Positions 11,798 through 61,768 of a stretch of 64,000 nucleotides of DNA are shown piece after piece. Numbering within the stretch: the stretch's first letter is position 1; every line of letters begins with the position of its first letter. The position numbers and the translations under genes are program-made. The notes beneath the pieces were generated by a model. The model saw only the letters and a program-made list of their open reading frames with translations. It had not been told where the DNA came from and did not search any database. Source of the stretch: Cordylochernes scorpioides (lineage: Eukaryota; Arthropoda; Arachnida; Pseudoscorpiones; Chernetidae); assembly GCA_030710605.1 (NCBI GenBank), contig CP092882.1, positions 14,141,677 to 14,205,676 of the forward strand, read 5' to 3'.

Positions 11798-12030
11798 CAT
11801 CATATATATGAATATTATAAATTTGGGTAAATTATCCAATGTGTTGAACTCTCTTCTATAAATATATGTATATGCATATATATATTTTGATATATGATTA
11901 TAAAGTATCTTTTTTTCTTGATTCTTCTATCATAACTTCTTTCAAATGTTTTGTCAATAAATATATATTCTTATATTGTATCAAATCTTTTTATAGCTTT
12001 CTCTCTCTCTCATACACTCTCTAGGCATAC

Positions 12031-12116
12031 TCAAGCAAGTGTGTCATCCTTACACATGACCCATGCTAATCTTCTCTGTATCCTTCCAATTTTAGTAGTT
12101 GTACCGCTATACAAGC
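12031..12116 (-). pseudogene. U6 snRNA pseudogene
   Basis: The minus strand contains CTAAAATTGGAA, GATACAGAGAAGATTAGCAT and AAGGATGACAC in U6 order. The ACAGAGA box is intact, but the 5' stem (GCTTGTATAGCGG for GCTTGCTTCGGC) and the 3' half are diverged. No T tract for termination follows, so it is probably a retroposed copy. Confidence 0.85.
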
Positions 12117-20363: not shown

Positions 20364-23300
20364 CTGGATCACAGCACGTGTCAATACAACGTCAACGTGG
20401 TCAAATAAACACTGAGAAACCCGATGGGAAGCGTTTCTCTCTTATTCAGTAATCATTCTTACTACATCGGATTTGTCGGAAATTCAGCAGGTACACAGCA
20501 ATATAGTTATTAGAAAAGGATTTCTATATACACTCATGGACAAAACTTAAGGAAGTTGTAGAATTTAGAATGTACATTGGACAATAATTCTGAAAGATAT
20601 TACAGTAACCTTTATTGAAGATACACGAGATTTTACCTAGTGTGAACAAAATTGCCTCTGTCTCCTTAAAAAAAAGAAGTAGATAACTGGCGATACCAAG
20701 GACTTTCAACTTCCTTAGTGTATAACTGATCAGTTCTAAATATAACGCTCTTTCTTTGTAACTTATTTCTCTTCAATTATACACACCTATTGAAGGACAG
20801 ATAAATCCGTGGAATGTATGATAACTAAATATATTAAACGTTCCAGTCTTGTTGTTTTACCTTTACACGTCATCAGGGATCTTATCTAAGAATTACTCAA
20901 ATAAAACGATAGAAAGGTTAGTAGAGGTTGAGCAGGCCCCGAGGTACTGTAAAAATCCAGAAGACGGAGGTGAAACCTTCCATTTTGAGGTTTTGATAAC
21001 ACAAGCATTCGAGAATTTGTTCTAAAGGTATGTAAATATGGTAAACAACGTTAGAAAACCGGACTATATCCTTGAAGTAGCTTTTGCATAAACATTCAAA
21101 AGATAAATAGAGATTTTAGACCCATTGAAGAGCCTTTTTGTTTCAAATTCTCGCCAGGTGTTTTAATAATTAAAAAAAAAAAACGCTACTCGTTGCTAAC
21201 CTTTCTCCTTATTTCGTTTTAATTAACTCGGTCAGCTTGTTTGGATAAACATGCAGGAATTTATATAAATAGAAAGCGAATTACAAAACAAAACAAAAAG
21301 TCACATATCCTTACTGCTCACATGAACATTCTAGATAACAGAGCGCTATCTAGTAGAGCAAAAATCAACTAAACGTTGATTTTATGCTTGTTTCCATAAT
21401 ATTTGGCTAACCCATTTCTTGATAAATCAAGAAAAGGTTAACCACGAACGCGTTTCGGGCTGTTGGCCCTCGTCAGCGTAGTGCAGACTGTACCTCGACG
21501 ACCAATAATTATGGTCCAAGAGGCTTCCTGAGAAATGAAGAAATGGGTATGTGAGCGGTCAGGGTATACCTTGTATATAATTATTTGCAAACATATTTCC
21601 TCTCATTATATTCCTAATTTAATCATTTTTTAGCAGTGAAGTAAACTCTCTCTCTCTTCATTATTTATTTATTCATATTTATTCTGTATTTAACCTTATA
21701 TAATCTTATATGGACTTTGTAATAAACCAGTTTCAATCTCAATCTCTCTCTCTCTGTGTTAAAGAATATCCTCTGTGAATTGTTCTTTGCCTGATTTCCC
21801 AATGTTTTTGAAAGATACCCATCCTTTTAAACATCCTTTCTTTTTAAATTGTATATATCTATGGAAGATATCAACCACCATGGTGGTTCATGATAAATAA
21901 CTTTCATATGGTCTAGGTGTTGTCCCACTAACTACTGTATTGTTTTGAGGGCCCTCTCGAATGAAGAGTCAGATCCAGCATCTAATTGAGAACTATTGAA
22001 AATAGAAGTTATAGCGGGTTTGAAGTCAATGTGAGTTTCATTACAGCAGCGGTGTGTACTACATGTATGTCCTAACATTTAGAAATATATAAATAAAATG
22101 GCCTGGGTGGGAGTATGATAGGAAAGGGAAGGTAAAATAGCCTAGTCAAAACAACCTCCTTGGTCACAAGATGTCCAGCCTTTACTCCACTTCCCCTGGG
22201 GATAATTTATCTTACTCAATGTGGTTTAAAAGCAGCTGGACAGTTAACACCGAGGTGGTCTCGACACCAGTTCTTCCCAGGGTGGTCCTAGAACCTTCTG
22301 TTGTATATCATATTTTAAGTTTAATTAATTGTTTTCTCCCACAGAGTATGTGTGTAAGATCACAAGTAAATAGGTGCTAACTGTAAGAAGATAAGTTTCT
22401 CTTTGTTTACTATGTTATAAATTTTATTTTGTTCTCTCTCTTGTAAATCAATAAAGATAATGTTTGATTATTCTTCTTGGAATCAGTATCTTTAAAAGGC
22501 CAAAGTTAACACCTTCGCTCTTCCCTCTACGATCTACTTTTCACGGTTTTTTTAAAATCTCTGGATCCTGTCTCCTGTTTGTATTGGGTTGGCCAAATAT
22601 CAGGGAACAGGCAAAATCAATGAATAGTTGATTTCTGTTCCACCAGATGGCGCTCTGCCTTCTGAAAAGCACATGTGCTCCTGGTCAGGATATGCCTTTT
22701 TTTTATTTTATAACATATATATATCTGTATATAGGAACACAGTGTGTAAGGAGTTACCGGAGGGCGGCAGGGTAGGACTCTGTGGTGACCACGTCCAGGG
22801 CGTTCCAGCCAATGATGGAGACAAAGTTGAAGAGTGACTCAAACGCCACCACAGCGGACCTGGACTGGGGAACCACCCACAACGCCAGGACACATATGCT
22901 CGCCAGGATCAGAGATGGACCTGTCGACATACAGTGCTGTTAATACATAAACCTTTCGTTATGGTTCTGTGTCTCGGTGTGTTTTTGTGTGTGGTGCCAT
23001 ATGTTTTTTTTTGTCTGTGTTATGCTATGTTTTTTTATGTGTGAGAATTATTCAAGATAAAACTTTAGCGTCACACGATATTTCAACGTAACTCCAGCAA
23101 AACTTGCGATACTCTCCTGGAACCAGGTCATAATGGGATGACAAATAGAGTTGGGTGTGAAGTCAATGTTCGTGAAGGACTATATAGGCGGTTTATATTG
23201 AAAACATATTGGTGATCATCTATATATGCAAATATGTTGACTGTCTGTGATACGCGATTTCGATTCGGAAACTGATTGGAGTTGAGACTTGACTTTTTCA

Positions 23301-26300
23301 AAGATTGTTCATGACCATAAAAGGAGGAAGAAATCCAAAAAATCAGATTTCTATCTCAAACCTCCTTGGAACTATAAGAAAAAACTGGCAAAAAAATCTC
23401 GACGCAAACTAGCGGTCTCGAGTCGGTGACAAAGCCACAACACCAGCTTTGGAAAACTGAAAGGCGTCCACCTAGAGACCATGGTTTCGGGCTAATGACC
23501 CTCGTCAGTCTAGTACGGACTTTATTCCATGAGATCCACACGGGATCTAATGGAACACAATAGATGACGTCTAGTTATACCATTTATTTTGACAGGAGAG
23601 GCGCCCATATGCTTTTTTAGATCAATTTCCTCCCGGAAAAAATATCTCTATATGTATACTTAGATTTTTTTGCCAGGAGGACAATTTGGCTCTGCAATTA
23701 GGTGTCCTTTACAGGGAGGTTCTACTGTATATCTATATATATACTTATACAGTATAATCTCCCTGTAAAGGACAACACCTAATTTAAGAGCCAAATTGTC
23801 CTTTAGGGTGAAGTGTTCTCTTACTGAAGAGTTTCTAAATAATAAAAATGGTCATTTTTCAAATGAAAACTGTCCTTTATAGAGAGGAGTCCTCTAGCGC
23901 GAGTGTCCTCTCTCTCATGAAGGTTGTTCTACTGTATATATAAACCTCTCTATAATCCTTTAAAAACATCACCTACGTATAAGCTTAAAACACTTCAAAA
24001 TAATAATAAAAAAGAATTAAAACCCACTCAAACAAGAGATTAAATGTTCTATTTCTTAGTCTTCAAAAAAGAGGGCTTAAAAAGAAGCCCACAAGACGTG
24101 GGCGAACAAGCTAAAGAAGTGGAGCCTTAAAAAAAAACCCACCTTTTTAAATATGTACGACATGGAGGGCAGGCTAAAAATGTCACAGCAAACAATGAGA
24201 TGGTGGTGACATGTTCGTTTGCTCAGTAAACACAGGATCTTCTGCTTAGATAGATTCTTCTGCACCATTTTAAAACACAATCTTATATCGCGTCACAGTT
24301 TGGAATGGTTAAAAAAAGCAATTTTGAGTTTTTTCGTTAATGTTACATAATCTTGTCATAACAAATTATTTAAAAATATTCAGACATTTATAAAAAATAT
24401 ATATATACATGTATGTGTGTGCGTTAGGGTTTTAATTATTAGTTTTAGGGTTATAATTAATCTATTATTTAAGCTTTTTTGTTCAAAACGTGTTTAAAGT
24501 AGGGTTGAAAAATAAAGCTATATTTTGTTATATTTAATATGGTATCTGAAGTAATCAACCAAATTAGTTAACATATGACAAAAAAAGTTGCTTTTTTACC
24601 TTTTCATTTCGTATATATAAATAGCAAGCTAAGATTTATGTTTAATTTACGAGGTGTGTTCAAAAGGTATCGCGACTTTTGTGTTTTTTCAAATATTATT
24701 TATTTATTCATGAATACCTATTTTGTCCCCTTCAAAGTAATCCCCATGAGATATTATACACTTGTGCCAACGGTTTCTCCAATCTTCGAAGCATTTCAAA
24801 AAATCATTTTTAAAAATATTTTTCAGCTCCTCCTTCGATGCCGTCTTTATCTCGTCAAGCGTAGCGTAACGTCGTCCTTTCATGTGCCTCTTCAGTTTAG
24901 GGAACAAGAAAAAGTCACAGGGGGCCAGATCTGGGGAATACGGTGGCTGCGCGGCATCATTAGTGTGTTGTTTTTGGCCAAAAAGTCGCGCACAAGCAAC
25001 GATGTGTGAGCAGGGGCGTTATCGTGGTGCAAAAGCCAATTTTTGTTCTTCCACAAATCCGGGCGTTTCTGGCGGATTGCTTCGCGCAAATTGCGCATGA
25101 CTTGCAGGTAATATTCCTTATTGACCGTTATACCCTGTGGCAAGAACTCATGATGCACCACGCCCCTGCAATCGAAGAAAACTGTCAGCAAAACTTTCAC
25201 ATTCGACCGAACTTGGCGCGCTTTTTTCGGTCTTGGTTCGTGCGGCAGCTTCCATTGAGATGATTGGGCTTTGGTTTCCACGTCACAACCATAAACCCAC
25301 GCTTCGTCACCAGTTATGACCCTCTGGAGCAAATTTAGGTCGTCGCGGACAGAGTCCAACATCTCATTAGCAATGTTCATGCGATGCTGTTTTTGGTCGC
25401 AATTGAGAAATTTTGGTACGAATTTCGCGGCGACCTGTCTCATGCCCAAATCATTGATAAAAATCGAATGGCACGAGCCAATTGATATGTTTAGGTCCTC
25501 AGCAACTTCTCTAACGGTGATTCGACGATTGGCCAAAATCATTTTCTCCACTTCATTAATTTTTTCGTCTGTTGTTGAAGTGCTCGGGCGTCCGGCAAGC
25601 TCTTCGTCGTTCACATCTTCTCGGCCTTCTGAGAACATTTTGTACCACCGATAAACGTTGCTTCGGTCCAAGGTAGCTTCTCCGTATGCCACAGTCAACA
25701 TTCGGAATGCATCCGCGCACTTAATTTCGTTTTTCACACACAAAATTTGATACAGGTTCTTTGATCCATTTTTTTAATAGGTAAAAATCGAAGACGATCC
25801 AAAACACCTGCAAGCAAAGCAGCTGTCAACAACTAAGTGAACATTCAAAATGGCCGAGCTTGTCGGCATAAGTGAGAGACATGAGTACCAACATAAAGCC
25901 ACAAAAAGATCGAAATTCGAATATACGTAACTCGCGAAAATTCAAAGGTCGCGATACTTTTTGAACACACCTCGTATACCTTACTGGCCTTTTGTGAATT
26001 GTTTACGGATGAGAAGTGCTCGAGGCAAGTATATTCACGGACAAAACTTAAGGAAGTTGTACCTTTTAGCATGGTATATCGGGATTCAGACAATAACTCT
26101 GAAAGATATTACAATGACCTTTATTGAAGACACACGAGATAACAAAGTGTGAACAACCTCTGTCTCCTTAAAAAAAAAAAAAAAAAAAGACGACCAGCGA
26201 CAACAAAGACATTCCACTTCCTTAAGTTATGTGTCCATGTGTGCAATTGTCTTCATTCCTTCTTTGGCGGCATCAAAGACTATCCACTTTCTTAAGTTAA

Positions 26301-39178: not shown

Positions 39179-39517
39179 CTCATTCACCCAATCTCAACGT
39201 TGATTCCACTTGCCAATCAGCGTGCAATATTTGTATAGCTTAGTGGTTGCATTGAGCAACCAAGTCTATAAAAATATAAGATTGTGTGTGGTCGATATTT
39301 AGAAATTTATCTTTTTAATTATTTTTTCACATTCTATTTGTAGTTTTTTTTAAAACAAGGGTATTTCACGGTTTGGTATTTATAAATCAAATTGATATTA
39401 GGCTTTTTAATTTTTTATTATAAAGATCTAACACTTGATCTCTTCATTCAATGGTCAATTATATACATATGTATGTGAAAAAATAATAGAAAGGTCAGGT
39501 GTTGATATTATAAATAA

Positions 39518-39690
39518 AAAATGGCATATCCTGACCAGGAGTACATGTGCTTTTCAGAAGGCAGAGCGCTATCTGGTGGAACAGAAATCAACTAAACATT
39601 GATTTCACCTGTTCCCTGATATTTGGCCAACCCAATTTCTTGATTTATCACATCTGCTCCTGGTCAGGATATGCCTTTTTTATTTTTAAT
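39518..39690. repeat. Family D arm pair without ribozyme
   Basis: Minus-strand arm GGCATATCCTGACCAGGAGT .. CAACCCAATTTCTTGATT joined directly to a plus-strand end TGGTCAGGATATGCC. Confidence 0.6.
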
Positions 39691-39872
39691 ACATATACAT
39701 ATATGGGAGATGCCTTTTTCTTAATTTATGCACCTTATCCCAGTACAATGTTATATTTGTGCTATTTTTTCACATTGTGTAGCGTCCTCACGCAATTCTG
39801 GCCTTAACTACCCGTTTCATGATTTTTCAGGATGCCTTAATGACCAAATTTTTTGGTCGTTGAGGTACAGCT

Positions 39873-39918
39873 TGCACCACGCTGATGAGGGCCAACAGCC
39901 CGAAACGCGTCCGTGGTT
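39873..39918 (+). ncRNA. Hammerhead ribozyme, type I (family E unit 1)
   Basis: CCACG, CTGATGA (39882-39888), stem II GGGC-CAACA-GCCC, GAAA (39902-39905), self-complementary ACGCGT, GTC ending at 39911, then CGTGG, which pairs perfectly with CCACG. Every conserved core base is present. Confidence 0.88.
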
Positions 39919-40094
39919 AGCTTTTCTTGATTAATCAAGAATGGGTATTTGGCCAATTCTGGAATAATTAAAAATCAACGAGAATAGTTGATATTTATTC
40001 CGATAGATGGCGCCAGCCATCAGCAACTTTCAGTTGCACGATAAGGAGATGCCTTTTTCTTAATTTATGCACCTTATCCCAGTACAATGTTATA

Positions 40095-40226
40095 TCAACA
40101 CCACAGAGGTCCGTACGTCTCTTGACCTCACGGACAATACAGCAGCTACATTATTCATTTTGTCTCCTCTCTAATTGTAAATACGCTACTGTATCACCTC
40201 ATAAGCATAAATAAATAATGTTATAT
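40095..40226 (+). mobile_element. 132-bp retroposed fragment with 10-bp target duplication
   Basis: Begins CAACACCACAGAGGTCCGTA after AATGTTATAT and ends with ATAAATA before a second AATGTTATAT. It looks like a 5'-truncated LINE/SINE piece inside the family E tandem. Confidence 0.6.
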
Positions 40227-40342
40227 TTGTGCTATTTTTTCACATTGTGTAGCGTCCTGACGCAATTCTGGCCTTAACTACCCGTTTCATGATTTTTCAG
40301 GATGCCTTAATGACCAAATTTTTTGGTCGTTGAGGTACAGCT

Positions 40343-40388
40343 TGCACCACGCTAATGAGGGCCAACAGCCCGAAACGCGTCCGTGGTT
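40343..40388 (+). ncRNA. Hammerhead ribozyme, mutated core (family E unit 2)
   Basis: Identical to unit 1 except CTAATGA for CTGATGA (40352-40358). That G is invariant in hammerheads, so this copy should be inactive. Confidence 0.75.
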
Positions 40389-40612
40389 AGCTTTTCTTGA
40401 TTAATCAAGAATGGGTATTTGGCCAATTCTGGAATAATTAAAAATCAACGAGAATAGTTGATATTTATTCCGATAGATGGCGCCAGCCATCAGCAACTTT
40501 CAGTTGCACGATAAGGAGATGCCTTTTTCTTAATTTATGCACCTTATCCCAGTACAATGTTATATTTGTGCTATTTTTTCATATACATATAAAGAGAGAG
40601 AGTATTTTATGT

Positions 40613-42575
40613 ACACTCATGGACAAAACTTAAGGAAGTTGTGCCTTTTAGCATGTATATCGGGATTCAGACAATAACTCTGAAAGATACACTCATGGAC
40701 AAAACTTAAGGAAGTTGTACCTTTTAGCATGTATATCGGGATTCAGACAATAACTCTGAAAGATACACTCATGGACAAAACTTAAGGAAGTTGTACCTTT
40801 TAGCATGTATATCGGGATTCAGACAATAACTCTGAAAGATACACTCATGGACAAAACTTAAGGAAGTTGTACCTTTTAGCATGTATATCGGGATTCAGAC
40901 AATAACTCTGAAAGATACACTCATGGACAAAACTTAAGGAAGTTGTACCTTTTAGCATGTATATCGGGATTCAGACAATAACTCTGAAAGATACACTCAT
41001 GGACAAAACTTAAGGAAGTTGTACCTTTTAGCATGTATATCGGGATTCAGACAATAACTCTGAAAGATACACTCATGGACAAAACTTAAGGAAGTTGTAC
41101 CTTTTAGCATGTATATCGGGATTCAGACAATAACTCTGAAAGATACACTCATGGACAAAACTTAAGGAAGTTGTACCTTTTAGCATGTATATCGGGATTC
41201 AGACAATAACTCTGAAAGATACACTCATGGACAAAACTTAAGGAAGTTGTACCTTTTAGCATGTATATCGGGATTCAGACAATAACTCTGAAAGATACAC
41301 TCATGGACAAAACTTAAGGAAGTTGTACCTTTTAGCATGTATATCGGGATTCAGACAATAACTCTGAAAGATACACTCATGGACAAAACTTAAGGAAGTT
41401 GTACCTTTTAGCATGTATATCGGGATTCAGACAATAACTCTGAAAGATACACTCATGGACAAAACTTAAGGAAGTTGTACCTTTTAGCATGTATATCGGG
41501 ATTCAGACAATAACTCTGAAAGATACACTCATGGACAAAACTTAAGGAAGTTGTACCTTTTAGCATGTATATCGGGATTCAGACAATAACTCTGAAAGAT
41601 ACACTCATGGACAAAACTTAAGGAAGTTGTACCTTTTAGCATGTATATCGGGATTCAGACAATAACTCTGAAAGATACACTCATGGACAAAACTTAAGGA
41701 AGTTGTACCTTTTAGCATGTATATCGGGATTCAGACAATAACTCTGAAAGATACACTCATGGACAAAACTTAAGGAAGTTGTACCTTTTAGAATGTATAT
41801 CGGGATTCAGACAATAACTCTGAAAGATACACTCATGGACAAAACTTAAGGAAGTTGTACCTTTTAGCATGTATATCGGGATTCAGACAATAACTCTGAA
41901 AGATACACTCATGGACAAAACTTAAGGAAGTTGTACCTTTTAGCATGTATATCGGGATTCAGACAATAACTCTGAAAGATACACTCATGGACAAAACTTA
42001 AGGAAGTTGTACCTTTTAGCATGTATATCGGGATTCAGACAATAACTCTGAAAGATACACTCATGGACAAAACTTAAGGAAGTTGTACCTTTTAGCATGT
42101 ATATCGGGATTCAGACAATAACTCTGAAAGATACACTCATGGACAAAACTTAAGGAAGTTGTACCTTTTAGCATGTATATCGGGATTCAGACAATAACTC
42201 TGAAAGATACACTCATGGACAAAACTTAAGGAAGTTGTACCTTTTAGCATGTATATCGGGATTCAGACAATAACTCTGAAAGATACACTCATGGACAAAA
42301 CTTAAGGAAGTTGTACCTTTTAGCATGTATATCGGGATTCAGACAATAACTCTGAAAGATACACTCATGGACAAAACTTAAGGAAGTTGTACCTTTTATC
42401 ATGTATATCGGGATTAAGACAATAACTCTGTAAGATATTACAGTGACCTTTATTGAAGACATACGAGATAACCAAGTGCTAACAAAATTGCCACTGTGTC
42501 CAAAAAAAAAAAAAACAGACGACCGGAGACATTAAAGACCTACCACTTCCTTAAATTTAGTCCATGAGTTTATAT
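40613..42575. repeat. 76-bp satellite, about 24 copies, grown from MITE N
   Basis: The unit is the left 76 bp of MITE N (ACACTCATGGACAAAACTTA .. AATAACTCTGAAAGAT). Copies start at 40613 and then every 76 bp to 42361. The last copy continues into the rest of the MITE, ending with the right TIR near 42570. Units are almost identical (one change near 41791, two in the last copy). Confidence 0.93.
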
Positions 42576-46480: not shown

Positions 46481-46527
46481 CCCCTGTACTGATGAGGGAC
46501 AAAGCCTGAAACCATGGTATACAGGTT
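46481..46527 (+). ncRNA. Hammerhead ribozyme, type I (family H)
   Basis: CCTGTA, CTGATGA (46489-46495), stem II GGG/CCT with one G-T pair, GAAA, stem III ACC-AT-GGT, GTA triplet, predicted cut at 46519/46520, then TACAGG, which pairs perfectly with CCTGTA. Interrupted downstream by retroposon M. Confidence 0.82.
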
Positions 46528-47404: not shown

Positions 47405-47450
47405 TCCCTGTACTGATAAGGGCCAAATCCCGAAATCCTGGTATACAGGT
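47405..47450 (+). ncRNA. Family H hammerhead relic
   Basis: CCTGTA and TACAGG still pair, but the core reads CTGATAA and stem III has changed; predicted inactive. Confidence 0.55.
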
Positions 47451-49522: not shown

Positions 49523-52500
49523 TTAATAATGAAGGCGATCCACAGGTTTAACAATTCGTCCACTCCGGGTTCTTATCTGGCCGTCTTCTGAGTCGTTAGA
49601 GGGATAATCCACAACTGGGGTCTTTTCATTTTCAACCAGTTCCTCCCCCGAAAAGGTCGGCGTCGATGGGTCGGCTGGATATTGCACTGTAACTCCTTTT
49701 CGTAGATGGAACCTGTTTCGACGTAAAGTCCCAACTGGAGTATCAACCATATACGACCTTGGTGTCGATGCTTTCTTCTTTACAATCCCCCAGGTTCGCA
49801 TATCTGTAATCCAAACCGTGTCACCTTCGGATAGCTCCTCCATGTCCGTAGCTCCGCAGCGTCGATCATATCTGGATTTCATATCCTTTCTCCTTCTCCC
49901 CTCCTTTCTTTTCAGGGTCTGAGAGTCCACCAACCTTGGATTAAGATTCTCTGGTGCAATTGGCAAGGTCGTTCGGAGTTTACGTCCCATGAGAAGCTCA
50001 GCAGGGCTGTAACCGTTCTCCAAAGGGGTCGATCGATACTCCAGGAGTCCAAGCGATGGGTCTTGATTTTTCTTGAGGATCAACTTAGCAATTTTCACAC
50101 CTGCTTCTGCCATCCCATTGCTCTGCGGGAATCGAGGACTTGAAGTGACATGTTGGAATCCGTACTGCCTTGCGAAATTTGCAAATTCACGAGCAGCTCC
50201 AAATTGCGTCCCATTATCGCTTACAACAGTTTCTGGTATTCCATGTCGGGCAAATATGGATTTGCAACTACGCACCACCACACTGGCTGTGAGCCGATCC
50301 AGCTGAATCATTTCAGGAAAGCGAGAATAATAGTCATTGACGACTAGATACCACTTATTCTCGAACTTGAACAAATCCATTCCAATCTTCTGCCACGGTC
50401 GTGAAGGAAAGTTCGTTGGTATCAAAGGTTCATGTTTTGAGACGGCTTCCTGGATACAGACACTGCACTTTCTGACCGTTTCCGCGATCTCTTCCGAAAT
50501 TCCAGGCCACCATACCGTCTCACGTGCGCGAAGTCTTGTTTTTGTAATCCCGAAGTGCCCAGCGTGCAACTTCTCTAGGATCTCCAGTTTCATACTTGCT
50601 GGAATAACAAGACAACAGCTACGCATCAGTAGTCCATTTTGAACGCCGAGTTCATCCTTGACATGCCAATAAGAGAGCAGAGCCTGTGACATCTTCTTCT
50701 TATCTGGCCAGCCTTGCTCAAGGTAGTTGACTACTGCTTTCAGGGTCGTATCTTCTTGTTGAGCTTCAAAAATCTTCGTCAACATCTCGTCCTTGTCGGT
50801 TATACTCGAGAGAACTGCATTTATATGCGCTGAGGTTGGCCGTTCGTCTTCACCTCCCTCGGTTGTAAGAAGTGGTTGTCTGGATAATGCATCGGCGTCG
50901 AGCAGCTCCTTTCCAGGGATATGCACTATTTCGAATCCAAACCTCATCATACGCATTCGGAAACGTTGCAGTCTTGGGGTCAGCGAACTCAATTCTTTCG
51001 TCGAAAATAGAGGAATGAGAGGCTTATGGTCGGTCTCAATTCGGAAACGCTTTCCAAGCAGGAAATCTTGAAAACGTTCGCAAGCCCATGTAATTGCGAG
51101 AGCCTCTTTCTCGATCTGAGCATATCGTTTTTCGGTAGGTGTCATAGTTCTAGAAGAATAAGCAACAGGTCGCCAGATTCCATTCTTACCTTCTTGCTTC
51201 AGTACCGCTCCCAAGCCGTATGAAGATGCGTCGGATGACACCATAGTTGGTTTCCTGACGTCGTATGCTGCCAAGATGGGTTGAGTCGTGAGCAATTCTT
51301 TCAACTTTCGGAATGCTCGCTCCTGGCTGCAATCCCAAACGAAGTCTTGACCTTTCACCAGCAACTGGTTCAGTGGTGCCACAATTTCAGATAAATTTTC
51401 CACAAAGCGTCCCAGATGGTTCACCATGCCAAGAAATCTTCTTACGCCATGAACATCGGTCGGAGCAGGCATCTTCGCCACTGCTTCGATTTTCGCTGGA
51501 TCTGGTCGGATACCGTCTTCATCCAGTATGTGCCCAAGAAAATTAATTCTTGGCACGCCGAAGACACACTTGGCCTTGTTTAGTGTAACTTTCGCCTCTT
51601 TCAGTTTTCGGAGCACTAAACGAAGAATTCGATCGTGAGTCTTGGAGTCGGAGGCAAATATCAGGATATCGTCCAGGTAACACATTACACCGTCCATGCC
51701 TTGCAAGATTATTGACATAACTCTCTGAAAATACTCTGGGGCGAGTGAGATTCCAAATGGCATTCTGCAGTATTTATATCTCCCAAAAGGAGTGATGAAG
51801 GTCGTTAAATGCTGGCAGTCCGGGCTCAACGGAATCTGGTGAAAGCCACTGTTCGCGTCCAGTTTCGAAAAGAATCTTGCTTCCCCCAGTTGCCCCAGCA
51901 TGTGCTCCACCACTGGCATGGGTTGCACTTCGCGCTGTACATGTTCGTTCAGCCTTGAGAGATCCACACAGAGTCGTATGTCGCCATTCGGTTTACCAGC
52001 AATCACAGTCGGTGCACACCATTCAGTCGCAACGTTAACTTGTGCTATGATTCCCGCCTTCTCGAGCTCTTCCAATCTTGTTTTAAGCTTTTCCATCAAA
52101 GGTATTGGTACCCGTCGAGGAGTATGCACAGCATATGGTTTTGCTCCAGGTTTCAATTTGATTTCGTAAGGGTTTCCGATCTGTCCCAGTCCTTCAAATA
52201 CTTCGGGAAATTCCTTGATCGGGTTAATTCTCGTCGCAACCACTTCAATCCGCCTCGCCAGGTTCAAGAGCTCACATGCCCGGCGACTCAGAAGAGGTTC
52301 ACTCAAACGACGAATGACATAAATCTTCTCCTTGATTTGATAATTGCCATTTCGCAGCGTTGATAAAAACATACCCACAGTCTGAAGTTCGGAGAATTCA
52401 GCAGCTCTAAGGTTGATATCACTTTTCACTAGTCGTTGCTGTCCCATTATCTTCTTGAAGAGACACAGAGGAACACATGTAACATCCGCCTGGGAGTCGA

Positions 52501-53434
52501 GCTTGAACTTCACCTGTTTCCCGTTCACTTGGATTTCTGCTGTCCATCGCCTCCTGCACTCGCCTTCATCATCATCGAGATTAGATGAATCCTCCACCGC
52601 TGAGACCTCCAGGAGAAAACCAATTTCTTCATCAAGTTCAGAAACAGCTTTGACTTCCGCAGTCATCGCCTGCTTATCTGGGCAGCAATTTGCAAAATGG
52701 CCAGGTTTTGAACACAGGTTACATTTCTGTCCTTCAGCACGGCAAGCCTGTCCTTCCCTGTGGGTGAAACCTCCGCACTTTGGACATCGTGATCTTGTTT
52801 TGGCTGACTTCTCCTTCTTCCTCGAAGGCTGCTGTTGTTGTTTCGGTGATTGTTTCTTCGAGTTGAACTTCACCTGATTGACCTTTTGGCTTGTTGAGGG
52901 ACACTGCAGGTCGACTTGCTGCTGTCGAACGGCTTCCTGCTGTCGAACCATTTTCACCGCCTTTTCCAAAGTCAGTTCGCTGTCCAACTGCATTCTTTCA
53001 GATAAAGCTTTGTCCCTCACTCCAACCACTATTCGGTCACGGATCAACTGCTCATGAAGACCCTCAAATTCGCAACTATCAGCCAATTTGTACAATGAAG
53101 TGATGAATTCGTCCACTGGCTCCCGATCCTCTTGGATTCTTGAATTAAATTTCGCACGTTCGTAGATAATATTCTTTCTGACACAGAAGTGGCTGTCGAA
53201 CGCCTTGAGGACGGAATCAATTTTCGTTGCCTCTTCCTCCTTTTCGAACTTGAAGGTCCTGAATATATCATCCGCGCGGTCACCCATCAAGTACATGAAC
53301 AAATCGATCTTGTCCGCCTCCTCTTTCTTCTTCATTCCACTGACCACGAGGTATCGTTCGAATCTTTTCCTCCATTTGGGCCATTCGTTGGGAGTCGAGA
53401 AGTCGAAAGTTTCTGGAGGTTGAATCTGAGCCAT
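49523..53434 (-). CDS. Gypsy Gag-Pol polyprotein, 1303 codons, single frame
   Basis: Starts MAQIQPPETFDFS. Gag occupies about residues 1-260 and has two zinc knuckles (CPKCGGFTHREGQAC about 217-231; CNLCSKPGHFANC about 238-250). Protease follows at about 310, where the active-site loop reads LDSQAD in place of the usual DTGA/DSGA. RT is at about 420-640 with YLDD at 586-589; RNase H follows with DASSYGLGAVL. Integrase has an HH-CC zinc region (HAGHFG..CSVC), then GMDLF, SDNGTQF and a Glu in SNGMAEAG (D,D,E). The C-terminal tail has no chromodomain that I can see. Gag and Pol share one frame with no frameshift. No interrupting stop. The odd protease motif is the only sign of possible defect. 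The overall style resembles the Mag-like clade, though this is only an impression. Confidence 0.95.
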   Translation of the reverse strand: MAQIQPPETFDFSTPNEWPKWRKRFERYLVVSGMKKKEEADKIDLFMYLMGDRADDIFRTFKFEKEEEATKIDSVLKAFDSHFCVRKNIIYERAKFNSRIQEDREPVDEFITSLYKLADSCEFEGLHEQLIRDRIVVGVRDKALSERMQLDSELTLEKAVKMVRQQEAVRQQQVDLQCPSTSQKVNQVKFNSKKQSPKQQQQPSRKKEKSAKTRSRCPKCGGFTHREGQACRAEGQKCNLCSKPGHFANCCPDKQAMTAEVKAVSELDEEIGFLLEVSAVEDSSNLDDDEGECRRRWTAEIQVNGKQVKFKLDSQADVTCVPLCLFKKIMGQQRLVKSDINLRAAEFSELQTVGMFLSTLRNGNYQIKEKIYVIRRLSEPLLSRRACELLNLARRIEVVATRINPIKEFPEVFEGLGQIGNPYEIKLKPGAKPYAVHTPRRVPIPLMEKLKTRLEELEKAGIIAQVNVATEWCAPTVIAGKPNGDIRLCVDLSRLNEHVQREVQPMPVVEHMLGQLGEARFFSKLDANSGFHQIPLSPDCQHLTTFITPFGRYKYCRMPFGISLAPEYFQRVMSIILQGMDGVMCYLDDILIFASDSKTHDRILRLVLRKLKEAKVTLNKAKCVFGVPRINFLGHILDEDGIRPDPAKIEAVAKMPAPTDVHGVRRFLGMVNHLGRFVENLSEIVAPLNQLLVKGQDFVWDCSQERAFRKLKELLTTQPILAAYDVRKPTMVSSDASSYGLGAVLKQEGKNGIWRPVAYSSRTMTPTEKRYAQIEKEALAITWACERFQDFLLGKRFRIETDHKPLIPLFSTKELSSLTPRLQRFRMRMMRFGFEIVHIPGKELLDADALSRQPLLTTEGGEDERPTSAHINAVLSSITDKDEMLTKIFEAQQEDTTLKAVVNYLEQGWPDKKKMSQALLSYWHVKDELGVQNGLLMRSCCLVIPASMKLEILEKLHAGHFGITKTRLRARETVWWPGISEEIAETVRKCSVCIQEAVSKHEPLIPTNFPSRPWQKIGMDLFKFENKWYLVVNDYYSRFPEMIQLDRLTASVVVRSCKSIFARHGIPETVVSDNGTQFGAAREFANFARQYGFQHVTSSPRFPQSNGMAEAGVKIAKLILKKNQDPSLGLLEYRSTPLENGYSPAELLMGRKLRTTLPIAPENLNPRLVDSQTLKRKEGRRRKDMKSRYDRRCGATDMEELSEGDTVWITDMRTWGIVKKKASTPRSYMVDTPVGTLRRNRFHLRKGVTVQYPADPSTPTFSGEELVENEKTPVVDYPSNDSEDGQIRTRSGRIVKPVDRLHY

Positions 53435-57734: not shown

Positions 57735-60700
57735 TCAATCTGAAACAACTGGGTTAAATGTAGACCCTGTTCTACTTGAACTTGGTCGGTTTAAAGAAGT
57801 GTCCTTGTCTTGGTTTGAGGAATTATCATCTGGTATTTGTACATCAGAAGAGTTGAGGTGTTCAATTCTTGTCGAATCTGAACTAAGATTTTCCTGGCTC
57901 TCTTCTGGAATCAAGTCAGAAATGCCTTGATTGGTCTCTTGAGTAGGAACATGTTTCAAATGTTTAGCATTTCTATGAATTATTTTCCCATTTTTAGTGT
58001 TGACTAATTTAAAAGAATTTATTGAAGTGTTTTCAAGAATGACATGATGTTCTGATCTGAAATTTGAATCAAGTTTTCCATTATTTGGATTTGCCACATA
58101 AACTAAATTTCCAATTTCAAAATTATGAGGACTAGCTTTCCGAATTATATCATTATATGTTTTCATTTTTTCTTTGTAGACCATATTGAATTCTTTGATG
58201 TTGGATTCATCTTCTTCTGCATCATTAACAAGTGAGCTTAATTTAGTTTTGATTTCTCTTGAAAATAATAGGAATGCTGGAGTCTTTCCTGTAGATCTGT
58301 TTGGAGTAGTTCGGTAAGACATTAAAATTCTGGATAAATCTTCTTTCCAATCTTTCCCTTCTTCAGAACTTGAATTGAATTGTTTCTTTAGAAATCTATG
58401 GAATATTTCTATCTTCCCATTACTTTTTGGGTAATAGGGTGAGGCTTTGATGTGCTTGATTCCACATTCTTTTAAAAATCTTTCCATTGATGTACTTACA
58501 AACTGTAAGCCATTATCTGTTACAACTTCATGTGGATAACCATGTCTTGCAAAGATCTCCATCAATTTTTTAATAATTGTCTTGCTGGAAATGTCTTCTA
58601 TTATCATTGCTTCAGGAAATGAAGAATAGTAGTCGATCACTGTTAAAACATAATGATGGCCAATTGGACCAACTATGTCAATTCCAAGTTTCATCCAAGG
58701 TTTTGATGGTAACGGAACTATTTGCAATGGTTGATCATTTATCAATGGTTGATTCCTTACACAAATTGGACAGTTTCTAATCAAATTTTCAATGTCAAAG
58801 TCCATGTTTATCCAAAAATATTTTTCTCTTAACAGTTGTTTGGTTCTTGTCATTCCTTGATGTGTTTCATGTGCAATTCTCAAGACTCTCTTTATTAGTT
58901 TTGAAGGTAGCAAAATTCTACTTCCTTTTAAGATAAGATTATCAAAAATTGAGAGTTCATCTTTAAACTTATAAAAACATTTGAATTCTTCATTCAAAGG
59001 ATATGGCCAAACTCCCTTTTGAACCATATCTTTCAGTTTTTGAAACAAAGGATCTTGCTCTGTACAAACTTTTATCTCTTTCAAAGACAGTGCTTGAAGC
59101 TCTTCAGAAGTGATGGATAAGACTTTATGAACATAGTCCTCCAGCCATTTTTCATCACTTGTGTTAGAAAGAGGTTGTCTTGAAAATATATCTGCAATAT
59201 TTTGCTTTCCTTGAATGAATTCAATTTCAAAGTCATATGGTTGTAATCTCCAACTCAATCTTTGAATTCTTGGAGGCAAAACAGCTCCATTTTTAGGATT
59301 CAGCATATAGATTAGAGGTTTGTGATCTGTTTTTAACACAAATTTCCTTCCCCAAATATAGGTGTTAAAATGTTCAATTGCCCATACACATCCCAATGTC
59401 TCTTTTTCTATTTGTGAATATCTTTTTTCAGTATCAGTTAAGGATCTGCTGGCATATGCAATGGGTCTTTTAATGCCATTTTGTTGTGTTTGTATTAATA
59501 CTGCTCCAAGACCAATAGGGCTTGCATCTGTGATTAATTCAGTTGGTGAGTTCAAGTTATAATATGCCAAGCATGGCTCTTTTGTTAGTGACTCTTTAAG
59601 ATCCTGAAATGCTTTATTTGTTTTCAAATCCCAATTCCACCTAACATTTTTTCTAGTCAAATTATTTAAAGGTTCTGCCAATTTAGAAAAATTAGGTATG
59701 AATTTTCTTAAAAACCAACAAGTTCCTAAGAATGACCTTAACATCTCAATATTTTTTGGTATTGGAAAATTTAAGACTGCTTCTATTTTCCTATTATCAG
59801 GTTTAATACCTTCACTACTAACAATGTGACCTAAAATATCCAATTCTTCCATGGCAAATTTGCACTTATTCCTGTTGAGCCTAATGCCTACTTTATCAAA
59901 TCTTTGTAAGACTTTTCTAAGCCTTTCTTCTAGTTCTTGTCTATCTTTGGCGTTAACAACGACATCGTCCAAGTAACAAATTGCACCTTTCAAATCAAGC
60001 AAAATTGAATCCATTCCTTTCTGATATGCCTCTGGAGCACTTGATAGACCAAAAGGAACTTTTCAAAATCTGTAACAACCACGGTGCGTGATGAAAGTTG
60101 TAAGGGGTCTTGATTGAGGGTCTAAGTCAACCTGCCAAAACCCTTTTTTTGCATCCAGCTTTGCAAATACTTTAGCACCTTTAAGGGCATGTAACATGTT
60201 GTCAATTGTAGGAATTGGATGTCTTTCTCTCAATATTGCTTTATTCACTTCCCGAAGGTCTATGCATAGTCTAATTTCCTCACTATCCCTTTTTGGAACA
60301 ACTATTATGTTAGAAACCCATTCAGAACCTTGATGCACTTCTTCAATGATTCCATTCTCTAGCATCTTATCAAGCTCTTGATTTACTGCTTCTACCATTG
60401 CATAAGGTATACGACGGCATCTCTGGGCAATGGGCCTATAGTTGTCTTTCAATGTCACTTTATGACTATAGCCTTTTATAGTTCCAAGTCCATGGAAAAG
60501 ATGTTCATGTTCTTGAACAAGAGTTTCTATATTAGTAGACATTGATTCATTTACATGATTTACCCTTTTAATTATACCTAGTTCAAAACTAGCCTTGCCT
60601 CCCAACAAAGATTCAACTTTTTTATCAATCACATAAATTTCTTCTGAAACTGAATTTTCTTTCCAAGAAATCACAGCATTGAAATAACCATAACATGGAA

Positions 60701-61055
60701 GAGGTCTATCTTGACCATAGGCAAAAAAGGTTCGGGTGGTGTCATGTAATTTTGGCATAATTTTATGGCCATATAATTCAAGCATCTTATTATAGCTTAT
60801 GAAAGTTCTATCACTCCCTGTATCAATTATCATATTTATTTCACTACCATCTATTTGCACTTTTTGTTTATTTTCAGCACCTGTATAGTAGGTATATTCA
60901 TCTGAACTTTCACCTACTTCAGTCTTATTTTCTTCTTGTATGGTCTTAACTTTAGTTTGATTGAAACTTTTGTGGTTTCTATTATTATTTTGATTTGGGC
61001 GGTTCCTGCAAGCTCTAAAAAGATGTTCTAATTTATTGCAATATGAACAAGTCAT
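57735..61055 (-). pseudogene. Pol of the second gypsy element, one in-frame TGA
   Basis: Protease has IDTGSDRTFIS, the normal DTG motif. RT is split: its N-terminal part (to 60066) ends in THRGCYRF, then TGA at 60065-60063, then KVPFGLSSAPEAYQKG in the same frame, CYLDDVVV, RNase H DASPIGLGAVL, integrase zinc region (HETHQG..CPIC), and core motifs GIDIVG, VTDNGLQF and SNGKIE. The tail is Ser/Asn-rich. Only the one stop is seen, so the rest of the frame has survived intact. Loss of RT-RNase H-integrase from the main product is expected unless the stop is read through. Confidence 0.93.
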
Positions 61056-61768
61056 TTTTTAGCACCACATTCTTGTGCTGAATGTGTATCTAATCCACAG
61101 CGATAACATTTAGGCTTTGAGGCACCTGAAAATGATGGGGTACCTTGATTAGTGAATCTACCTTTGTTGAAATTATTAGCATTATAGTGCTTTTTAGGTT
61201 TATTTTGAACTCTATTTAGTGTTTGATCATTTTGAGGTTCAAGAAGTCTAATTTCTTTTCTAGAAATTTCTAACATTCTAGCAATATCAATGGTTTTTGA
61301 CAGTGTCAAATTTTCTTGCTGCAACAATTTTTCTTTAAGTTTTTTGTTGTTACATTTTTCAATTATTTGGTCTCTTATCATATCAGCTTCTAAATTCCCA
61401 AATTCACAAGATTTAGAAAGCTCTCTTAAAGAAATTAGGTAGTTGTCGATCGATTCATCATCTTTCTGGACTCTTTGTCTAAATTTAAATCTCTCAGTGA
61501 CCACATTTTTATGAGGTGTGAAATATTTATCTAAAGCCATTTTAGTTTGTTCATAATTTTCCTTTTCATCTGGCAAGTTGAAAAATATACGCTGTACATT
61601 TGGCCCTAAACAATGCAATAGAGTTGCTCTCTTAATTTCATCCGATTTTTTTGAAATTCCAGATGCTATTTCAAAAATGGCATAGGATTCCATCCATTGC
61701 TTATATTCCGCAAATAAATTGCAAGCATTCATATTCATGGGTAAAGGTGGCGTCAGGTTGGCTGCCAT
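61052..61768 (-). CDS. Gag of the second gypsy element, 238 codons
   Basis: Starts MAANLTPPLPMN; the capsid-like region is about residues 20-150, with FRQRVQKDDESIDNYL and CEFGNLEADMIRDQII, related to the other gypsy's FNSRIQEDREPVDEF. It ends with one zinc knuckle CYRCGLDTHSAQEC just before TGA. The stop overlaps the ATG of the next frame (ATGA), and a second knuckle (CSYCNKLEHLFRAC) opens that frame. The last codons are AAA AAA TGA, so either -1 slippage or stop-restart could deliver Pol. Confidence 0.9.
   Translation of the reverse strand: MAANLTPPLPMNMNACNLFAEYKQWMESYAIFEIASGISKKSDEIKRATLLHCLGPNVQRIFFNLPDEKENYEQTKMALDKYFTPHKNVVTERFKFRQRVQKDDESIDNYLISLRELSKSCEFGNLEADMIRDQIIEKCNNKKLKEKLLQQENLTLSKTIDIARMLEISRKEIRLLEPQNDQTLNRVQNKPKKHYNANNFNKGRFTNQGTPSFSGASKPKCYRCGLDTHSAQECGAKK

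Follow-up and report, generated by a model that had tools for sequence, protein, structure and literature searches.

The window analysed here is a 64,000-nucleotide stretch of contig CP092882.1 from the pseudoscorpion Cordylochernes scorpioides, in which a short non-coding element with hammerhead ribozymes lies among other repeats. In the following list, F1 to F4 are four hammerhead families found among the loci that we retrieved (the names are our own), A and B are the two end sites of the element, and PLE stands for Penelope-like element.

12013-12112, minus strand: U6 snRNA match (61.4 bits)
21442-21481, minus strand: older F1-like hammerhead
23472-23513, minus strand: F3 hammerhead, stem I CTAGA/TCTAG, stem III ACCATGGT
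24892-25743, minus strand: reading frame, presumably mariner-like
39475-39692, strand not given: F2 miniature head-to-head copy, with a B-like end on the left and an A-like end on the right, assigned by eye
39694-39703 (left) and 40582-40591 (right): target duplication TATACATATA, read from the sequence
39706-40581, plus strand: whole retrozyme copy, ~2.2 turns of the 339-nt unit with the insert set aside
39706-40044, plus strand: reference unit 1, 339 bp, GC 0.407
39877-39916, plus strand: unit 1 type I hammerhead, core intact, cleavage predicted after 39911
40040-40078, plus strand: stem-loop A (GATAAGG...CCTTATC), whose T-rich loop contains the A start site
40086-40095 and 40217-40226: the two copies of AATGTTATAT that flank the 121-bp insert
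40096-40216, strand not given: foreign insert of 121 bp, with the 10-bp duplication AATGTTATAT on either side
40347-40386, plus strand: unit 2 hammerhead, core CTAATGA, predicted inactive
40551-40581, plus strand: B site, a hairpin followed by ATTTTTTCA, forming the 3' end of the window copy
40612-42437: 76-bp satellite, 24 copies with 99% matches, beginning ~30 bp past the retrozyme
46484-46524 and 47408-47448, plus strand: F4 hammerheads, stem I CTGTA/TACAG, the second with core CTGATAA
47610-47890, strand not given: head-to-head PLE insert consisting of pLTRs only, with minimal hammerheads, a short left arm and a tailed right arm; borders approximate, by eye
49523-53434 and 57735-61768, minus strand: reading frames that we take to be Ty3/gypsy-like

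The repeat at 39706-40581 is a single, damaged copy of an animal mobile element that is very abundant and carries a self-cutting RNA. Its left junction carries two additional bases (TG) beside TATACATATA, and its 3' terminus falls at unit position ~67, which is the B site. The initial annotation had described a non-autonomous, retrozyme-like element with two 338-bp units in direct tandem. Two units are indeed present, with 99% identity over a 300-nt stretch, but the unit measures 339 bp and the two are not in contact: the 121-bp repeat splits them, which accounts for their spacing of 470 and for an expected monomer of 470 nt. This insert belongs to a different repeat family (at least 40 matches, from the best 40 of 1,245 candidates scored). 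The proposed non-autonomy is supported. No reading frame of at least 120 aa overlaps the copy, which speaks against a PLE proper with its reverse transcriptase (RT) and GIY-YIG frame. A viral origin was also rejected, with an exact 35-mer occurring in 0 IMG/VR contigs. The F2 miniature directly adjoins the copy, and related elements are likewise adjacent at three retrieved loci (L045, L051, L085).

Unit 1 carries the motif CCACG-CTGATGA-GGGC-CAACA-GCCC-GAA-ACGCGT-C/CGTGG (the slash marks the predicted cleavage at 39911/39912), with the intact core and stem I first reported for it; the open helix is helix I. Unit 2 has the same motif except for its CTAATGA core, also as reported, a change that corresponds to G5 to A in standard hammerhead numbering. 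Among 144 scan matches, this core occurred at the window locus only, which was entered twice (as the window and as its own genomic locus). The covariance-model search that had been proposed as a check found no hammerhead in the window at the Rfam gathering score. RF00163 gave no match in the genome and was silent in control genomes too. At a lax threshold, RF02275 (Hammerhead_HH9) matched 39866-39931 with 26.5 bits (gathering score, 52; E = 9e-4), in an alignment that draws stem I with an internal loop. The structural case for a hammerhead draws on covariation across families.

F1 has stem I CCACG/CGTGG and stem II GGGC/GCCC, F2 has stem II GCGC/GCGC, and F3 and F4 have the stems listed above. 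We aligned 17 of 28 distinct variants, the 11 omitted being mostly one-base F1 variants, and found pairing in 96.4% of cells, compared with 86.3% after shuffling and <46% for slid structures. Two-sided changes affected 6 of 13 pairs (stem I, 4 of 5; stem II, 2 of 4; stem III, 0 of 4), with stem I pairing partly selected for by a variant scan that demanded 3 bp of it. One of the five covariation measures, further pair types, showed no excess over shuffles (199 of 500 as high). Stem III is palindromic in F1 to F3 and in one of the two F4 units in the window. The proposed assignment, a type I hammerhead whose stem III (ACGCGT) is complementary to itself, is supported.

The pattern CTGATGAG-N4..14-CGAAAC-N2..10-GTC occurred 13,766 times (6,833 + 6,933) in the 2.6-Gb genome and once (1 + 0) as a reversed control, a count that omits families departing from the fixed bases of the pattern. 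At loci outside contig C1, the core was intact in 85 of 89 passes over the unit. Changes were found in 16 of 3,638 cells of the 40-nt motif, in 372 of 25,642 cells of the rest of the unit excluding stem-loop A, and in 44 of 4,670 cells of stem-loop A, counts in which passes within one array are non-independent. The silence of Rfam at the gathering score would suit a hammerhead that arose by chance or is a relic without a role, which the 13,766 matches against one in the control, the covariation and the scarcity of mutations in the motif make extremely improbable.

ACGCGT is too short for a closing hairpin, so the ribozyme is probably dimeric, its palindromic stem III pairing between two RNAs and hardly within one. 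The predicted folding energy was -35.6 kcal/mol for the dimer versus 2 x -14.9 kcal/mol for two monomers. When two units share stem III in a dimer, each core acts on the cleavage site of its partner; the unit 1 core would then cut the unit 2 site, and the unit 2 defect would spare 39911/39912. The case for the two units as a natural active/inactive comparison, made in the initial annotation, is therefore weaker than claimed, and the insert, which alters the expected monomer, weakens it too. Folded as a circle, the RNA reached -113.8 kcal/mol, compared with a mean of -71.7 (s.d. 5.2) for 100 base shuffles.

We assembled relatives of the window copy from two samples: 139 matches from a DNA search with one unit, hand-grouped into 36 loci (from the best 40 of 1,067 candidates scored), and, picked by position rather than similarity, the 30 pattern hits that come first on contig C1. 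Merging overlapping pieces gave 58 intervals with 59 F1 arrays at an identity of at least 88%, and removal of four duplicated loci and three arrays truncated at locus ends left 52. Overall, 33 of these 52 were head-to-head inverted, so that the head-to-tail arrangement first reported holds for the one-way window copy but is not the commonest form in our sample. A further 17 were called one-way, nine ending at B (including the window copy) and eight at A, some of these calls being possibly incomplete (at C3:88035771 (L036), for example, a gap of ~245 bp divides a head-to-head copy). The remaining two had other ends, one of them being the left half of the window copy.

In head-to-head arrays the minus arm lies on the left and the plus arm on the right, with 5' ends facing. 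Inversion points were dispersed over the unit and outer ends were fixed, A at unit position 14-25 (~20) and B at 65-76 (~67), a spread that comes partly from alignments extending into AT flanks. The two ends of an array were almost always of different kinds (31 A+B, 1 A+A and 0 B+B, p = 1.5e-8; one further array had a B and an uncalled end), as was the case before deduplication among arrays with both ends called (35, 1 and 0). All 33 inversion junctions were head-to-head and none tail-to-tail, with microhomology of at least 2 at 14 of the 33 (16.4% expected) and short inserts at 10. Among pattern-hit pairs <1 kb apart in the first 100 places listed, five were -/+ and one was +/- (C1:7792511/7793033). 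Two arrays with different flanks, C10:52186224-52189410 (L037) and C17:57241266-57242669 (L044), share a near-identical inversion junction (unit 303/244-247 or 264/244, by two different alignments), which points either to a hot spot or to an inverted RNA as template. Stem-loop A differs by two paired changes between F1 (GATAAGG/CCTTATC) and F2 (GGTCAGG/CCTGA[TC]C) and appears from these sequences to be shared by both families; we make no such claim for B, with no B-like stem-loop of F1 recognisable by eye in F2.

The flanks of the arrays were 83% AT, compared with 63% for the window. Left and right flanks matched over at least 8 bp in 32 of 48 arrays (re-paired flanks, 20.5%) and in 11 of the 19 arrays without (TA)n flanks (re-paired, 2.1%), giving target duplications of 8-14 bp in a search that ranged up to 14 bp. 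Had the arrays instead been expanded and inverted by recombination after insertion, as satellite DNA, then unequal crossing-over and gene conversion could have added and homogenised whole units, and a genuine 76-bp satellite does adjoin the window copy. Dispersed copies with target duplications, fixed outer ends and a 33:0 excess of head-to-head junctions are, however, products of insertion, and we regard a satellite origin as very remote; satellite-type recombination may be a source of the longest arrays.

Copying frequently continued beyond one full turn. Among 32 head-to-head arrays measured, 41 of 64 arms exceeded one turn, with a maximum of 9.12, and 67 of 82 outer cDNA segments crossed the cleavage site, both the arm lengths and the crossing count being inflated by the choice of loci that contain a unit or a hammerhead. 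Three segments stopped within ~6 nt of the site, approximately the uniform expectation, and three of the 15 non-crossing segments 'stop' at unit 1 merely from a split alignment. Because copying runs past the cleavage site, a cut linear monomer is not the usual template.

These data also bear on a LINE enzyme as the source of the copies, with the inversions produced by L1-like twin priming. Twin priming yields both a head-to-head inversion and a target duplication, and the excess of junction microhomology would be in line with it. To our knowledge, however, L1 twin priming has no fixed second site, whereas both sites are fixed here and paired 31 to 1. No poly-A tail was seen in the flanks inspected by eye, the arms often exceed one turn, and the tail rule of PLEs described below fits the ends instead. 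Copying by a LINE enzyme is therefore highly unlikely.

Arms of one array resembled each other more closely than they resembled other arrays. At loci outside C1, divergence was 0.0066 between passes of one arm, 0.0075 between opposite arms and 0.0134 between different arrays (0.0063, 0.0075 and 0.0183, respectively, including C1). Of 24 arrays (with a duplicated C10 pair counted as two), 23 had arms that agreed in a two-site haplotype, the discordant one being C15:5112626, and first-pass haplotypes agreed in 24 cases against a permuted mean of 9.4 (p <= 1e-5). Gene conversion between inverted arms could also be a source of this concordance. One array, C7:101476073-101480184, has arms of ~4.1 and 9.1 turns, and 12 passes over both arms share a two-marker combination absent from other retrieved arrays (each marker occurs singly once elsewhere, and a thirteenth pass lacks letters at both sites), which argues that one monomer sequence served both arms.

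A circular RNA is the best fit to these sequence patterns, and the original suggestion of copying through such a molecule agrees with the arm haplotypes and the multi-turn copies, from which we infer circularisation. The possible alternative is that the same element is copied by the same PLE enzyme from a linear multimer, transcribed off an array in the genome and left uncut. Arrays of several units do exist in the genome, and 19 of 91 partial variants within arrays recur in other arrays (18 of them non-CpG); recurrent mutation aside, this is not expected of a template consisting of a single monomer. Hammerhead mutants were also without effect on PLE insertion in vitro, where cleavage was dispensable, according to the available text of that study, which favours unprocessed RNA (PMC11167929). 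A multimer would, however, transmit differences between its units, whereas a single haplotype runs across arms and through 12 passes, and the lower mutation rate of the ribozyme relative to the remainder of the unit is hard to explain without a use for cleavage. On balance we consider a multimeric template unlikely and favour the circle.

We then compared the ends with those of PLEs. The genome contains at least 146 GIY-YIG matches at E <= 0.001 (from the best 150 of 17,015 candidates scored), and GIY-YIG pairs <10 kb apart were head-to-head in 11 of 11 cases. Five scanned open frames all contained GIY-YIG and yielded neither a further Pfam family at E <= 0.001 nor an RT domain. At three loci (L096, L101, L104), open frames have GIY-YIG near their start, an arrangement resembling that of PLEs with permuted domains. 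Minimal hammerheads were present in PLE loci L097, L100 and L106, and L099 has a degenerate one. By eye, all four head-to-head PLE copies (the window piece, L097, L099 and L106) had one short and one tailed end, in a comparison of hammerhead-side ends that covers the window piece and 3 of 12 retrieved loci. In the tailed arms of three folded PLE copies the short site also lies inside a stem loop. A CTGGCC-type stem holds the short PLE end in its loop, as GATAAGG/CCTTATC does the retrozyme A end, so that PLE and retrozyme ends in one genome have a like architecture with different letters; no PLE with the A/B letters of the retrozyme was noticed among the 12 retrieved loci.

Published PLEs have target duplications of 8-10 bp and inverted head-to-head pLTRs, of which one bears a 31-bp tail (PMC3846280). 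According to the available text of the biochemical study, purified PLE enzyme cuts and extends both strands at AT-rich sites and starts reverse transcription at two adjacent internal positions whose interval equals the tail (PMC11167929). Judged by sequence, each of these hallmarks has its genomic counterpart in the retrozyme copies: two adjacent putative RT starts, one per inverted end, a tail on one end, a hammerhead near the RT start, and AT-rich targets with duplications that overlap the PLE range of ~8-10 bp. Relative to the PLEs covered by these sources, the A-B distance is ~47 nt rather than 30-40, the retrozyme has no open reading frame and its hammerhead is fuller than the minimal form found in PLEs.

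The element belongs to the metazoan non-LTR retrozymes, of the kind published by Cervera and de la Pena in 2020 (PMC7229834), which bears out the retrozyme-like assignment of the initial annotation. As in the accessible part of that description, it combines an intact-core type I hammerhead and a weak or palindromic helix III with a non-coding unit of 170-400 nt and GC <50% (here 339 bp and 0.407). It also forms multimers (the arms longer than one turn, in a sample that favours long arms), has target duplications >4 bp and coexists with PLEs. In contrast to the tandem repeats of that account, whose available text describes no inverted form, inverted two-end arrays dominate our sample. Plant LTR retrozymes, as far as the text available to us describes them (PMC7761336), share a hammerhead, non-autonomy and a circular RNA, which for the present element is the favoured reading, but have a type III hammerhead, an LTR, PBS and PPT, and 4-bp duplications; the open helix I and the longer duplications rule out this class.

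Taken together, these observations are best explained if a PLE enzyme copies a circular retrozyme RNA by doubly primed, rolling-circle synthesis, a reading to which we give a probability of roughly 75% on genomic evidence. Paired (dimeric) type I hammerheads would cut the transcript, and the 339-nt monomer would probably close into a circle. A PLE reverse transcriptase/endonuclease, the presumed enzyme, would bind a two-site start module, stem-loop A and site B ~47 nt apart, and make cuts 8-14 bp apart in the two strands of an AT-rich target. Each of the two target 3' ends would then prime synthesis, at A in one case and at B in the other, and the two cDNAs would extend away from the start, often for more than one circuit of what may be one and the same template molecule. 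End joining would unite them in the middle, leaving a head-to-head array between target duplications, and priming from a single strand would produce a one-way array, of which the window copy may be an example. Somewhat better than even, in our view, are the chances of a more specific version in which a dimeric PLE enzyme loads both subunits on one circle, at A and B, each priming from one strand for rolling-circle synthesis before the cDNAs are joined, with the A/B module acting as the helper-recognition signal.

PLE copying of retrozymes is a hypothesis in the existing literature: PLEs are named merely as a strong candidate helper of metazoan retrozymes in the available text of one paper (PMC7229834), and that of a review finds no conserved retrozyme motif that reveals the helper (PMC7761336). 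Neither head-to-head retrozymes nor PLE-type ends on retrozymes were found in the literature searched, mostly titles and the beginnings of abstracts. Relative to that literature, three things are new: the head-to-head arrangement, the rule that A is combined with B, and the evidence for copying by a PLE enzyme.

Which enzyme moves animal retrozymes is a standing question, to which the ends described here bring a motif and a rule of one A and one B. This rule can be checked in any retrozyme-bearing genome and in vitro with purified PLE enzyme, as obtained in the published work to the extent available to us (PMC11167929), and the arrays themselves record how far reverse transcription proceeded around its template. 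If the version with a dimeric enzyme on one circle is true, the A/B module would supply the signal for helper recognition that has long been missing for animal retrozymes.
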